Assembly (NCBI GenBank): GCA_945988915.1
Contig: CAMFTS010000002.1
Span: 1 to 36,240 of the forward strand
Direction of reading: 5' to 3'
Length of the DNA stretch: 36,240 bases
Source of the DNA: an uncultured Clostridia bacterium
GTDB lineage: Bacteria > Bacillota > Clostridia > Oscillospirales > Acutalibacteraceae
This document shows positions 18,909 through 25,954 of the stretch, in pieces; positions within the stretch are counted from its first letter, which is position 1, and every line of letters starts with the position of its first letter. The notes beneath the pieces are model-generated. The model saw nothing but the letters and a program-made list of their open reading frames with translations. It ran no database searches and was not told where the DNA came from. The translations under genes were made by a program, and so were the position numbers.

Positions 18909-21320
18909 TTAGTTTTGCTGCCAAAGCTTATTTTGTTTTTTATTTCCGGTATCAATAGGCATATCAAGCTTTTTAATCGGTTTTTCTTCTGTATTAAGCG
19001 TAAGCTTTAATACTTCGCTGACATGTGAAACCGGAATAAAGTTTACGGCGTCAACTACAACCTTATCAAATTTCTTAATATCGGCAATGTTTTCTTCAGG
19101 AATAATCACCGTTTTGATACCTGCTTTATATGCCGCCATTGATTTTTCTTTAAGTCCGCCTATTGCAAGTACTCTGCCCGTAAGCGTAACTTCACCCGTC
19201 ATTGCAAAATCGGACTTTACGCTGTATCCGGACAATGCTGATACAAGTGCAGTAACTATTCCGATACCTGCCGATGGGCCGTCTTTTGGTACTGCGCCCT
19301 CGGGGAAATGAATGTGAACATCTTTATTTTTATAAAAATCGGTATCTATTGAATATTCAGCCGCAACGCTTCTTATATAGCTATAAGCCGCTTTTGCGGA
19401 TTCCTTCATAACATCTCCGAGCGAACCCGTAAGCTCAAGCTTTCCCGTACCGTCAGTTGAAAGCGCCTCGATTTCAAGCATTTCTCCGCCTACCGAAGTC
19501 CATGCAAGACCGTTTACGACTCCAACCCTGTCAAACTTTGAAAGCTCGTCTTGCTTATACTTTCTCGGTCCGAGAAGCTCTTCTATATCATTTGCCTTAA
19601 CCGTGATTTTACCCTCAAAGCCCGTTGCAAATTTTACAGCCTCTTTTCTGAGTACCTTTGCGACAGTTCTTTCAAGCAATCTCACGCCTGCTTCTTTAGT
19701 ATAACCGTCAATAATCAGCTTCAACGCGTCATCTTTAATTTTTATCTGCGTTGATTTAAGTCCGTATTCCTTCAGTTGTTTAGGAATAAGATGCTTTTTT
19801 GCAATATTGAATTTTTCGTCAAATGTATAGCTGTAAAGCTCAATTATTTCCATTCTGTCACGCAGTGGTGCAGGAATACTGCCTATATCATTTGCCGTTG
19901 TCACAAATAATACCTTACTCAAATCGAACGGTATATCAATATAATGATCTCTGAATGAGTTGTTCTGCTCAGGATCAAGTGCTTCAAGCAAAGCTGACGA
20001 AGGATCTCCCTTATAATCATTTGAAAGCTTGTCCACCTCATCAAGCAGGATAAGCGGATTGGCACTCTTTGAGCGTTTAAGTGCATCAATAATATTACCG
20101 GGCATCGCTCCGATATAGGTCTTTCTGTGTCCTCTTATTTCAGCTTCGTCTTTTACACCGCCCAAGGATATACGGGCATATTTTCTGCCCATAGCACGCG
20201 CAAGGGATTTAGCTATTGAAGTTTTTCCGACACCGGGAGGTCCTGCAAGACAAATTATCTGACCTTTAATGTCAGGAACAAGATTACGGACTGCAAGCAG
20301 CTCTATAATTCTCTCTTTCACCTCGTTAAGACCGTAATGGTCTTTTTCAAGAATGTCAGACGCTTTTTTAATGTTGAGATTATCCTTTGTGTATGTATTC
20401 CACGGCAAAGCAAGAACTTCGTCAAGATAATTTCTTATAACTGCGCTCTCAGGACTTGTAGTCTGCATTTTCATAAGTCTGTCGCACTCTGTAAGAAGCT
20501 TTTCTTCGTCTTCTTTTGCAAAACCGATTTTTAAAATCCGTTCACGGTATTTCTGTGACTCGGCTTCGGGAGCATCGCCGTCATTCAATTCGGTTGATAT
20601 AGCTTTCAACTGCTCACGCAGATAGTATTCACGCTGATTATCATCGATTTGTTCCTGCACTCTGTCGTTAAGCTCAGCCTCCATTGCAAGAACATTTGCT
20701 TCTTTTGCAAGTATTACGCAAAGCTTTTCAATTCTTTTCAAATGATTAAGCTCTTCAAGAACTGTCTGCTTAACCTTATATTCAAGAGGAATATTTGCGG
20801 CAATGTAGTCAGCAAGCTCTCCCAGCTCGTTTTTAACCGTAACTCCCAAAGCAATATCAGGAGCGATTTTCGGTGCAAACTCACAGTAATCATCAAAAAG
20901 CCCTTTCATACTTCTGACTGCCGCCTCGGTTTTCAGCGAATCGGTTATCTTCGGAAGCTTTTCGATTACCTGCGCCGCAGTAGCGGTAAAGAACGGCGTT
21001 ACACCTGTAATACCGCAAAGTTTTGCTCTGTATTTACCCTCTACGACTACTCTCATATTGTCGCCTGAAGGCATTCTGACAATTTGCTTTATTTCGCATA
21101 CTGTTCCTATATCAAAAAGCGTCTTTGTGTTTATTGCATCCTCCTGAACATCCTTTTGAGCTACAAGGAAGATATCTTTTTTGGCAACCATTGCCGCTTT
21201 AACCGCCGCAACGGATTTCGGTCTGCCGACATCAAAATGCACTGTCGAATTCGGGAAAACTACAAGTCCTCTCAAAGCGACCATCGGCATAGCGACAATA
21301 TCACTGTTTAAATAATCCAT
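18909..21320 (-). CDS. lon: ATP-dependent protease Lon
   Basis: GPPGVGKTSIAKSLARAMGRKYARISLGGVKDEAEIRGHRKTYIGAMPG; catalytic KDGPSAGIGIVTALVSAL. Confidence 0.97.
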   Translation of the reverse strand: MDYLNSDIVAMPMVALRGLVVFPNSTVHFDVGRPKSVAAVKAAMVAKKDIFLVAQKDVQEDAINTKTLFDIGTVCEIKQIVRMPSGDNMRVVVEGKYRAKLCGITGVTPFFTATAAQVIEKLPKITDSLKTEAAVRSMKGLFDDYCEFAPKIAPDIALGVTVKNELGELADYIAANIPLEYKVKQTVLEELNHLKRIEKLCVILAKEANVLAMEAELNDRVQEQIDDNQREYYLREQLKAISTELNDGDAPEAESQKYRERILKIGFAKEDEEKLLTECDRLMKMQTTSPESAVIRNYLDEVLALPWNTYTKDNLNIKKASDILEKDHYGLNEVKERIIELLAVRNLVPDIKGQIICLAGPPGVGKTSIAKSLARAMGRKYARISLGGVKDEAEIRGHRKTYIGAMPGNIIDALKRSKSANPLILLDEVDKLSNDYKGDPSSALLEALDPEQNNSFRDHYIDIPFDLSKVLFVTTANDIGSIPAPLRDRMEIIELYSYTFDEKFNIAKKHLIPKQLKEYGLKSTQIKIKDDALKLIIDGYTKEAGVRLLERTVAKVLRKEAVKFATGFEGKITVKANDIEELLGPRKYKQDELSKFDRVGVVNGLAWTSVGGEMLEIEALSTDGTGKLELTGSLGDVMKESAKAAYSYIRSVAAEYSIDTDFYKNKDVHIHFPEGAVPKDGPSAGIGIVTALVSALSGYSVKSDFAMTGEVTLTGRVLAIGGLKEKSMAAYKAGIKTVIIPEENIADIKKFDKVVVDAVNFIPVSHVSEVLKLTLNTEEKPIKKLDMPIDTGNKKQNKLWQQN

Positions 21321-21366
21321 ATATATAACTCCTTAGAACTGTTAACATAAAACAATTTGAATGTCA

Positions 21367-21395
21367 ATTATATAATAATTTTCGACTTACTGCAA
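21367..21395 (-). promoter_or_regulatory. Putative lon operon promoter
   Basis: Minus strand TTGCAG (21395-21390), 17 bp, TATAAT (21372-21367). Confidence 0.65.
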
Positions 21396-21495
21396 TATAT
21401 TTTTTACAATTTTATCCTGTATAGTATTTATTTTTTATATTAAATAATAATTATAATAAAAATATAAACAATATTTACAAGTTGTATTTTTTCTC

Positions 21496-21524
21496 TTGCA
21501 AACAACAGCAAAATATGGTATAAT
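21496..21524 (+). promoter_or_regulatory. Putative promoter of the decarboxylase operon
   Basis: TTGCAA, 17 bp, TATAAT. Confidence 0.7.
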
Positions 21525-21530
21525 CACCCG

Positions 21531-21687
21531 GTAAATTTTATAATGGGAAAAATTTGGATTTTCTTTTCGTACAGTTCTTTACAGCTTGTAAAAATTGATT
21601 GATATTTCGATCTTTTTACAGCTTCTGCCCTGAATTGACAAATTTTTTCCGTATTAAAAATCATTAATAATTTAGGAGGATTGACAT
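21531..21687 (+). ncRNA. Putative structured 5' leader of the decarboxylase operon
   Basis: ATGGGAAAAATTTG (21543-21556) pairs over 14 bp with CAAATTTTTTCCGT (21639-21652); internal GCTTGTAAAAA...TTTTTACAGC hairpin (21584-21622) competes with TTTACA-GCT-TGTAAA (21578-21592). Confidence 0.5.
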
Positions 21688-23070
21688 ATGAAAGTTCAGT
21701 TTACTGAAACGGCTTTGAGAGATGCAAACCAATCTCTCATTGCGACAAGAATGCCCTTTGAAAAGTTTGAAGGCATACTTGAAACAATGAACAAAGCCGG
21801 TTACTATTCAATGGAATGTTGGGGCGGCGCAACATTCGATTCCTGTCTTCGTTATCTTGACGAGGACCCGTGGGAAAGGCTCAGAAAAATAAAAGCTAAA
21901 TGTCCTGACACAAAGCTTCAGATGCTTTTAAGAGGTCAGAATCTTCTCGGCTATAAGCATTATCCTGATGATGTTGTCAGAATGTTCGTAAAGAAGAGCG
22001 TGGAAAACGGTATTGATATTATCAGAATTTTCGACGCGCTTAACGATACCAGAAATATTCAGGTTGCCGTTGATGAAACAATTAAAAACGGCGCTATTGC
22101 TTCAGGTGCTATTTCTTATACAACAAGCCCTGTTCATACTCTTGAGAAGTATGTTGAGCTTGTAAAAGAAATGAAAGCAATGGGTTGTTCAACAATTTGT
22201 ATTAAAGATATGGCCGGCGTTATGACTCCTGCCGAAGCTAAAGACCTTGTAAGTGCAATTAAAGACGCATTACCGGATATGCCCGTTATTCTTCATACTC
22301 ACTGCACAACAGGTATGGCTTATATGACAATTCTTAAGGCTGTTGAAGCAGGCTGCGATATTATTGATACAGCAACATCCTGTTTCTCCGGCGGTACTTC
22401 ACAGCCTGCGACCGAAACACTTCACGACGCTCTCAGAGGACTTGGTTACACAACAGGACTCAGCAGAGAAACAATCAAAGAAGTTAATGACTACTTTAAG
22501 CCTATCAGAGATGAATATCTTGCTTCGGGACTTCTCAAGCCGAAAGCGCTCGTTACGGATACAGACGCTTTAACTTACAAGGTACCCGGCGGTATGCTTT
22601 CAAATATGATGGCTAACCTTGAAGATATGCACGCTCTGGACAGAATGGACGAGGCTCTTATTGAAATTCCAAAAGTGCGTGAAGATATGGGCTATCCCCC
22701 TCTTGTTACGCCTCTCAGTCAAATGGTTGGCAATCAGGCTGTAACTAATGTACTTGTAGGACAAAGATACAAGAATATTTCAAAAGAAATCAAGGCTTAT
22801 ATTAGAGGTGAATACGGTAAGGCTCCCGGTGAAATAAACGCCGCTCTTCAAAAGAAAGTGCTCGGCGACGAAGCTCCTGTCACTTGCCGTTTTGCAGATA
22901 CGCTTGAGCCTGAATTTGAAAAGGCAAAGGCTGAAATCGGTGACAAGGCTAAATGCGATGAAGATGTACTTTCATACATTGCTTTCCCGACACAGGCAGA
23001 GGCATTCTTCGACAAGCGTGAAGAAAAAGCAAAGAATACATTTAAGTATTCAATTAAAAGAATTGACTAA
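21688..23070 (+). CDS. oadA: Oxaloacetate decarboxylase alpha / pyruvate carboxylase B-type carboxyltransferase, without biotin domain
   Basis: FTETALRDANQSLIATRMP, MECWGGATFDSCLRYL, MLLRGQNLLGYKHYPDDVV, IFDALNDTRN, CIKDMAGVMTP, HTHCTTGMAYM. Confidence 0.9.
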   Translation: MKVQFTETALRDANQSLIATRMPFEKFEGILETMNKAGYYSMECWGGATFDSCLRYLDEDPWERLRKIKAKCPDTKLQMLLRGQNLLGYKHYPDDVVRMFVKKSVENGIDIIRIFDALNDTRNIQVAVDETIKNGAIASGAISYTTSPVHTLEKYVELVKEMKAMGCSTICIKDMAGVMTPAEAKDLVSAIKDALPDMPVILHTHCTTGMAYMTILKAVEAGCDIIDTATSCFSGGTSQPATETLHDALRGLGYTTGLSRETIKEVNDYFKPIRDEYLASGLLKPKALVTDTDALTYKVPGGMLSNMMANLEDMHALDRMDEALIEIPKVREDMGYPPLVTPLSQMVGNQAVTNVLVGQRYKNISKEIKAYIRGEYGKAPGEINAALQKKVLGDEAPVTCRFADTLEPEFEKAKAEIGDKAKCDEDVLSYIAFPTQAEAFFDKREEKAKNTFKYSIKRID

Positions 23071-23082
23071 GGAGTGTGAGGT

Positions 23083-23526
23083 ATGAATTTTCTTAATACA
23101 GTAAGCGAAGCTACTTTGACAGATGCATTACTTTCAGCAGCTCCTTCATCAAGTGAACCGCTCACTATTATCGAAGCTCTGAAAACCTCTGTTACAGGTA
23201 TCGTAGTTGTTATGATTATTCTTGCGCTTCTTGCGGTACTCGTTGTTATTCTTTCAAAAATTATCCGTGCATTTGAATCTGTTGCAAAGAAAAAAGAGAA
23301 TAAGGACGAAGCTGTCAGACCTGCAAACGAGAATAAAGCAGACAGCAAAGCAGACAGCAAAGGAACAACTCTTCCCGATACACAGTCTGCCGGTAATCTT
23401 GAGCTTTACAAAACAGATGAAAAGACTGCCGCTGTAATTATGGCTATTGTTTCAAATGAAAGCGGTATCCCGCTTAACAGATTACAGTTTAACTCAATTA
23501 AACTTTTAGAAGATAAGGGAGAATAA
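23083..23526 (+). CDS. Na+-translocating decarboxylase gamma-like subunit (OadG family)
   Basis: One N-terminal TM helix (VTGIVVVMIILALLAVLVVILSKII), charged linker, position between alpha and biotin-carrier genes. Confidence 0.75.
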   Translation: MNFLNTVSEATLTDALLSAAPSSSEPLTIIEALKTSVTGIVVVMIILALLAVLVVILSKIIRAFESVAKKKENKDEAVRPANENKADSKADSKGTTLPDTQSAGNLELYKTDEKTAAVIMAIVSNESGIPLNRLQFNSIKLLEDKGE

Positions 23527-23529
23527 GAT

Positions 23530-23916
23530 ATGAAATACATTGTTACATTAAATGGTATGGACTATGAAGTTGATGTTACAGAGCTTGACGAAGCAATAGT
23601 TTCAAATGTTGCACCGTCTGCACCTGTTGCAGCACCTGCTGCTCCCGTTGCGGCAGCACCTGCACCTGTTGCTGCAGCAGCTCCTGCGGCTGTTTCGGGA
23701 ACAGGCACACCTGTTAAATCACCTATGCCGGGTACAATACTTAAAGTAAATGTTTCTGCAGGTCAGAAAGTAAATGAAGGCGATGTTCTCTTCATTCTTG
23801 AAGCTATGAAGATGGAAAATGAAATCGTTGCTCCGACAAGCGGTACTGTTTCACAGGTAATCGCAAACAAGGGCGCTTCTGTTGCTACTGACGAAGTTCT
23901 TGCTTTTATCGGTTAA
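23530..23916 (+). CDS. Biotin carrier protein of the decarboxylase (biotin/lipoyl attachment)
   Basis: Ala/Pro-rich linker then [44 protein letters not shown] with canonical EAMKM. Confidence 0.93.
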
Positions 23917-23930
23917 GGAGGAGCTTGAAC

Positions 23931-25133
23931 ATGGATATTATAAATTCAATTATTGAAATCTTTCAGACCTCCGGTTTTGCTTCACTCGGTTGGCAGAATT
24001 GGGTTATGATTTTGGTTTCATTCGCTCTGTTATATCTTGCGATTGTTAAGAAGTTTGAGCCTTTGCTTTTACTTCCCATCGCATTCGGTATGCTTCTCGT
24101 AAATGTTTATCCTGAAATAATGTACGATCCGCTTGCGATTGCTACTCCCGGCGGCGAAGTGCTTGACGCTTCGGCACATTGGTACGATTCAGGTGTTTTA
24201 AGACTGATTTATTGCGGTGTTAAGTCGAGTATCTTCCCCTGTCTTATATTTATGGGTGTTGGCGCTATGACTGACTTCGGTCCCCTTCTTGCAAACCCGT
24301 CGAGCTTGCTTTTGGGTGCTGCCGCTCAGCTTGGTATCTATGTTGCTTTCCTTATTGCAACAGCAACAAAGTTTATTCCGGGATTTGAGGGCTTCTCTGC
24401 TTTAGAAGCTGCTGCAATAGCTATCATCGGCGGTGCAGACGGTCCTACGGCTATTTACCTTACCGGTAAGCTCGCTCCTCACCTTTTAGGACCTATCGCA
24501 GTTGCCGCATATTCATATATGGCATTGATTCCGCTTATTCAGCCGCCTATTATGAAAGCGCTCACAACCAAAAAGGAAAGAGAAATTAAGATGGATCAGC
24601 TCAGAACTGTAAGCAAGGCAGAGAAGATTATCTTCCCTATCGTTGTTACAGTTATCTGTGTAGTTATCATTCCGTCAACAGCCCCACTTATCGGTATGCT
24701 TATGCTCGGTAATCTATTCAAAGAATCAGGCGTAACAGAAAGACTTTCGGACACAGCACAAAATGCTCTTTGTAATATTGTTACAATTATGCTCGGCGTC
24801 ACTGTCGGTGCTACTGCAGAAGGCAAAACTTTCCTTGATATCAAGACACTTCTTGTCATTGCAATCGGTCTGATCGCATTCGCATTCTCGACCGCAGGCG
24901 GTGTTCTGTTCGGAAAGCTGATGAACATTATTACAAGAGGCAAGGTTAATCCGCTTATCGGTTCTGCCGGTGTTTCCGCCGTTCCTATGGCTGCCCGTGT
25001 TTCACAGGTTGAAGGTAGAAAATACAATCCTTCAAACTTCCTTCTCATGCACGCTATGGGTCCGAACGTTGCAGGTGTTATCGGTTCTGCGGTTGCGGCA
25101 GGCTTCCTGCTTCTCACATTTGGCGGCAAATAA
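23931..25133 (+). CDS. oadB: Na+-translocating decarboxylase beta subunit (OadB family)
   Basis: [62 protein letters not shown] at 23931 preferred over TTG 23925 by RBS spacing. Confidence 0.92.
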
Positions 25134-25195: not shown

Positions 25196-25954
25196 TTATT
25201 TATTTTTGTTCTTCGGGAAGATAACTTCAAGTGCTTCTTTGTAATTTCCGAAATTCATTTTCGGGAACAAGCGTTTATATCTTGCAAGCTGTGACTTGCC
25301 GCTTTTCATTTTCTCAACAAGATTGTCAATATATGCGTTTGACTTGATTTTATCCGCCATTTCATCAATTTTCTCATCGGTCTTATCAATTTCATCCTGC
25401 ATATTTTCTACTAAATAGTTCTGAATTTCTTTAAGACTGCGGATAATATTTTTCAGGCTTTGCACCGTGAGTGCCAAGTCTATAATCAAAATGGAATAAA
25501 TCACAAAAGCAAGTATAAGTCTTATATCTTCAGGAATTCTCTCGGTAATGTTCATTACAAAAGGTTGAACAAATTTTATCAAAAGAGCAACACCTAAACC
25601 GAAAAGAATTGAGCTCGTCAAGCATATTCTGCCCTTAATATTAAATCTCTGATTTGAATAGTCCCACCACATTGCATGAAATACTTTTTCCAACACATAA
25701 TGAGTTATGTATTCAAGCGTATCGCAAAGCAGTAATCCTACAAAGAAAAGTGCAAAAAAGTTTGATATCTTTCCATAGAGAAGAATAGTGCAAAGAACTG
25801 CCCCGGAGCCGTAAATCGGGCATAACGGGCCAAATAAAAACCCTCTTTTTACTGATTTCTTATCTCTTACCGCAAAAAGAATTGTTTCGGTTATCCAGCC
25901 GAAAACACTATACATAATAAACCATAAGAAGTAGTTAACTATTTTAATTAACAC
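25196..25954 (-). CDS. Membrane protein resembling the putative ABC transporter permease family PF06541 (CmpB-like)
   Basis: FLWFIMYSVFGWITETILFAVRDKKSVKRGFLFGPLCPIYGSGA and CDTLEYITHYVLEKVFHAMWWDYSNQRFNIKGRICL; several TM segments. Confidence 0.72.
   Translation of the reverse strand: MLIKIVNYFLWFIMYSVFGWITETILFAVRDKKSVKRGFLFGPLCPIYGSGAVLCTILLYGKISNFFALFFVGLLLCDTLEYITHYVLEKVFHAMWWDYSNQRFNIKGRICLTSSILFGLGVALLIKFVQPFVMNITERIPEDIRLILAFVIYSILIIDLALTVQSLKNIIRSLKEIQNYLVENMQDEIDKTDEKIDEMADKIKSNAYIDNLVEKMKSGKSQLARYKRLFPKMNFGNYKEALEVIFPKNKNK

Follow-up and report, generated by a model that had tools for sequence, protein, structure and literature searches.

We identified a short conserved sequence at the predicted 5' end of the mRNA for a Na+-pumping decarboxylase in an uncultured bacterium of the order Oscillospirales, in a 36,240-nucleotide stretch of DNA (the window). 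In our preferred reading, which we hold tentatively (probability about 45%), a 5'-terminal RNA stem-loop is a control element shared by OadA and the GTP-dependent PEP carboxykinase (GTP-PEPCK, encoded by pckG), and is read by a trans-acting factor. This reading draws on the place of the element at the 5' end, its conserved 5' strand, a co-varying partner strand and its occurrence at two genes of one metabolic node. No description of an oadA/pckG leader element was found in a literature search.

In gut anaerobes, the choice between succinate/propionate and acetate/lactate is made at the PEP-pyruvate-oxaloacetate node, and the decarboxylase lets this node feed a sodium gradient. An element common to two oxaloacetate-acting enzymes provides a concrete handle for finding their regulator, as well as a clean case for telling whether control at the transcription start acts on RNA or on DNA.

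The decarboxylase operon and its leader

The first gene of the operon (21688..23070, + strand, ATG at 21688) encodes an oadA-type carboxyltransferase without a biotin domain (PF00682 and PF02436), for which the best NCBIfam models are pyruvate carboxylase subunit B and oxaloacetate decarboxylase alpha. The genes that follow on the same strand (23083..25133) encode a gamma-like subunit (23083-23526, PF04277), a biotin carrier (23530-23916, PF00364) and the Na+-pump beta subunit (23925-25133, PF03977/TIGR01109). Judged by these Pfam matches (OAD_beta, OAD_gamma, PYC_OADA and biotin carrier), the operon is that of a Na+-pump decarboxylase, with oxaloacetate or a related compound as its probable substrate; the carboxyltransferase falls short of the cut-offs of the alpha-subunit equivalog models. 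Downstream, a gene with a GTG start for a PF06541 (CmpB-type) membrane protein (25196-25954, - strand) faces the operon.

The initial annotation had placed a promoter, two pairing arms, a repeated 10-mer, a Shine-Dalgarno sequence and a start codon around the 5' end of the operon, and all of these coordinates proved exact when checked against the sequence. The promoter (TTGCAA-17-TATAAT, 21496..21524, + strand) consists of TTGCAA at 21496-21501 and TATAAT at 21519-21524, from which transcription is expected to start near 21530-21532. The 5' strand of the stem (AUGGGAAAAAUUUG, 21543..21556) pairs with the 3' strand (CAAAUUUUUUCCGU, 21639..21652), and the insert between them (21558..21638) holds two copies of the 10-mer TTTACAGCTT (21578-21587 and 21615-21624) together with alternative hairpins. 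The Shine-Dalgarno sequence of oadA, AGGAGG, is located at 21674..21679.

The conserved 5' strand and its pairing partner

The window's genome is 1.2 Mb in size and 69% complete. Relatives were gathered by whole-genome and contig searches, and the sequence preceding the start codon was taken as the leader; the genomes are draft metagenome-assembled ones, and the transcription start is inferred from the promoter. In the window's genus and in some other Oscillospirales, the sequence AAWTGG-N3-5-AATTTGGATTTT is kept directly behind the -10 box of oadA leaders, and a sigma-70-type promoter is found upstream of the element in nearly all element-bearing homologues. In the window, the conserved stretch (ATAATGGGAAAAATTTGGATTTT, 21540..21562, + strand) corresponds to the 5' strand of the annotated stem. 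Across oadA leaders, the element contains two TGG-type words 10-12 nt apart. Its internal spacing differs by 1-2 nt, and its distance to the -10 box is mostly 9-11 or about 15-19 nt.

With a two-part model trained on the 14 closest oadA leaders, 80 more distant ones were examined and 18 of them reached p<=0.05, compared with four expected by chance; at least 10 of these 18 matches sit directly behind a promoter, as in the window. Within the window's own genome, the sequence model finds oadA only. The element was spotted by eye in the first oadA leaders and modelled afterwards, which makes its definition post hoc; this choice has little bearing on the pckG result or on the swap test described below. 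A leader peptide starting from the AUG at 21543 was rejected as a candidate, as its start codon is changed to CTG, TTG or TCG in relatives, where the frame stops at the third codon.

The window leader folds with a minimum free energy (MFE) of -33 (z -2.4 against dinucleotide shuffles, of which 4/200 were as good), and the 14-bp stem is present in this fold. The comparison with shuffled controls thus came out in favour of the leader as a whole, while pairing between the two arms in the window alone is only modestly unusual (p 0.035). Since the variable loops could not be aligned by MAFFT for a covariance model, pairing in the homologues was examined by shuffle and swap. Pairing of the 5' strand with the downstream region exceeded that of shuffles in 25 oadA leaders (Fisher, p 4e-4) and in 22 pckG leaders (Fisher, p 1e-8), although these values are optimistic because the leaders are related and not independent. 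In the swap test, which set each leader's own partner against the partners of other leaders with main effects removed, p was 5e-5 for pckG and 2e-4 for oadA; here, relatedness among the leaders works against the signal.

The 3' strand has no conserved sequence, yet it co-varies with its own 5' strand, and variable stem positions display up to five pair types when chosen leaders are folded by MFE. At the GG, much of the pairing is G-U. Pairing is thus kept through co-varying partners, as is characteristic of a cis-acting 5' RNA stem-loop, but not in every leader: a minority retain the 5' sequence with little pairing (L003, L018, L020 and L010 for oadA; L248 and L251 for pckG), and the hairpin is therefore not universal. 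The two closest homologues of the window have the stem in a shifted register, so that the three closest leaders alone do not prove it. The annotated outer stem is nonetheless supported by its presence in the MFE fold, by pairing beyond chance once homologues are included, and by the swap test. The broader claim that the Na+-pump decarboxylase operon has a structured leader is likewise supported, by the Pfam matches, the conserved 5' strand and the co-varying stem.

The interior of the leader fared differently. The initial annotation had proposed an internal switch, in which the repeated 10-mer offers two competing partners, within a closed domain resembling a ligand-responsive element. The two nearest homologues lack both the repeated 10-mer and the long alternative hairpin. 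Leaders of most relatives measure just 45-80 nt, which shows that the window's long insert is not a general feature; they are also too short for a two-partner switch, which is confined to the window. In many relatives the leader contains no more than a hairpin of ~35-50 nt, and in some just the 5' strand. Across homologues, the 5' strand and its partner are kept while the interior varies, in place of the conserved aptamer architecture that marks a riboswitch. Together with an empty Rfam search, this argues against a ligand-responsive closed domain.

The element at pckG and possible matches at other genes

A sequence-only model (R1) built from oadA leaders was scanned over 295 genomes of the order. 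It gave a match at E<=0.5 in half of the 295 genomes, most of them by chance, and is useful only at the top, where a pckG leader and Na/Pi symporter leaders came up; this GTP-PEPCK leader (L121) was among the best places. Leaders of pckG were subsequently gathered in the window's genus, and many of them open with this element, ATAATGGCGAAGATTTTGATTTTG and AAACTGGGTAGTTTGGTATTT being two examples. In pckG leaders, the element and the region immediately downstream form a duplex, in many cases of 9-16 bp including G-U pairs.

With the oadA-only model in the nearest relative, oadA took rank 1 and pckG rank 3 among 883 leaders. Of the pckG leaders in the genus, 16/31 fall within the top 1% of this 883-leader background, as counted from the model-ranking table with genus membership taken from separate searches; 15 of the 16 match at the promoter-proximal place and one matches away from the promoter. 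About half of the pckG leaders in the genus have a diverged match or none. The pattern AATGG-N3-5-AGATTT[GT]GATTT occurs exactly twice in the 1.9 Mb searched of the nearest relative (about 95% of its genome), in the oadA and pckG leaders. With the window and its nearest relatives left out of the training set, a model still gave pckG the top rank of all places behind a -10-like box; oadA came within the first dozen, under several coding-region matches. A glyA leader that also ranked highly in the nearest relative served as a negative control and, unlike pckG, is not conserved in relatives. We conclude that oadA and pckG probably share a control element.

Some pckG leaders (among them L249, L257, L242, L246 and L243) have a second hairpin, such as TTTCGGATTACCGAAT or GTCCGACGCTATGTCGGA, between the element and the Shine-Dalgarno sequence; its arms change from leader to leader.

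A strict pattern of promoter plus element gave five matches, compared with two for a reversed control pattern. Exact fits to the strict pattern were seen in Na/Pi symporter and nadA leaders (L143/L144 in G125 and G111, and L141/L170 in G254:C3). We did not retain nadA and the Na/Pi symporter as genes carrying the element, as the pattern is not kept in the relatives of these genes and could be a coincidence. Element-like sequences also lie directly behind the -10 box of an L-lactate dehydrogenase gene (L163, G235:C2:301644) and of a YicC-family gene (L155, G332:C26:19556); each is a single case and may be due to chance.

Readings of the element and candidate regulators

In the preferred reading, the sequence-conserved 5' strand, which lies a short and mostly fixed way behind the -10 box and recurs at pckG, would be read at the 5' end of the message by an RNA-binding protein or a small RNA. 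The stem may fold or hide this strand, and decay or translation of the oadA and pckG mRNAs would then change together. Co-variation of the 5' strand with its partner favours action at the RNA level, while the leaders that conserve the sequence without a hairpin favour action at the DNA level. It is possible, though we consider it doubtful, that this is an undescribed regulon element which couples the Na+-pumping oxaloacetate decarboxylase to GTP-PEPCK through mRNA 5' ends in uncultured gut Oscillospirales, with sensing either direct, by a minimal riboswitch that recognises a PEP/oxaloacetate/CO2-node metabolite, or through a new RNA-binding regulator.

The main rival is a DNA operator, in which the conserved 20-25 bp right behind the transcription start would be bound as double-stranded DNA by a transcription factor that blocks initiation at oadA and pckG, the hairpin being secondary. 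Operators that overlap the transcription start are short conserved sequences which, in a few promoters, keep an almost constant spacing behind the -10 box. The short element described here resembles them in its conservation, which extends to leaders without the hairpin, and in its mostly fixed distance to the -10 box, and its two TGG-type words 10-12 nt apart would also suit an operator. Unlike such operators, it is not palindromic as DNA, and where the 5' strand varies, its downstream complement co-varies; moreover, the G-U pairing at the GG would not be kept by a DNA palindrome, the internal spacing of the element differs by 1-2 nt, and no regulator gene was found adjoining the operon in the window. 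On balance we regard an operator as unlikely, although it is the strongest of the alternatives.

Bacterial mRNAs also have 5' stabilising stem-loops, and the stem could act passively by keeping a 5' exonuclease (RNase J) and a pyrophosphohydrolase off both messages. In most leaders just a few nt separate the predicted 5' end from the stem, whose interior and 3' strand are free to vary, as in such stem-loops; in Firmicutes, RNase J1 is known to be subject to control at the 5' end (PMC5419742). A passive stabiliser leaves unexplained why the sequence of the 5' strand is conserved and common to two unrelated genes and almost no others, which makes this explanation rather improbable.

We give still less weight to a riboswitch with Na+, a C4 acid, PEP or CO2/bicarbonate as its ligand. 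It would suit a short conserved leader element at two genes of one metabolic node, and the pattern fits Na/Pi symporter leaders of another genus. The Na+-I riboswitch (DUF1646 motif), a described family with two extended stems and conserved clusters, occurs occasionally upstream of oxaloacetate decarboxylase genes (PMC9337991), which is the position of the present leader element relative to its Na+-pump decarboxylase. Many leaders here are only about 35 nt and have no conserved loop or junction architecture, and the interior of the window leader is not conserved. Unlike the Na+-I riboswitch, the window has no Rfam match: covariance models at the gathering cut-off, including that of the Na+-I riboswitch, gave 0 matches in the window, and a permissive search of 21300-21800 gave weak, unrelated matches only. 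This agrees with the annotation, which had recognised no known riboswitch class. Chance pairing of A/U-rich sequence with a general promoter-proximal composition, a worry already voiced in the annotation and compatible with the weak single-leader statistics (window p 0.035), is scarcely credible given the joint shuffle tests, the swap test and the specificity for oadA and pckG.

Known post-transcriptional regulators were searched for as candidate trans-acting factors. A tblastn search covering about 95% (1.9 Mb) of the nearest relative's genome detected neither CsrA nor Hfq, and several oadA leaders have TTTGTATTT without GGA, whereas a CsrA-controlled leader is marked by the presence of CsrA and a GGA in the hairpin loop. 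In B. subtilis, the small RNA RsaE/RoxS works at the 5' end of a malate-transporter mRNA (PMC5419742). In the present case, RsaE/RoxS (RF01820) was above the cut-off in 0/30 relatives, the nearest relative included, with a positive B. subtilis control, and no other non-coding place in the nearest relative has long complementarity to both elements. A further difference from RoxS/RsaE is that the site itself forms a stem and is common to oadA and pckG. Two small-RNA-like loci in the genus, L398 (G016:C34:14947-15059) and L399 (G012:C7:105543-105657), scored below the RsaE cut-off (about 30 bits). Each has three CCCCC-containing stretches and a terminator-like hairpin, and from these features they look like a putative C-rich regulator of the RoxS/RsaE type in two genomes of the genus.
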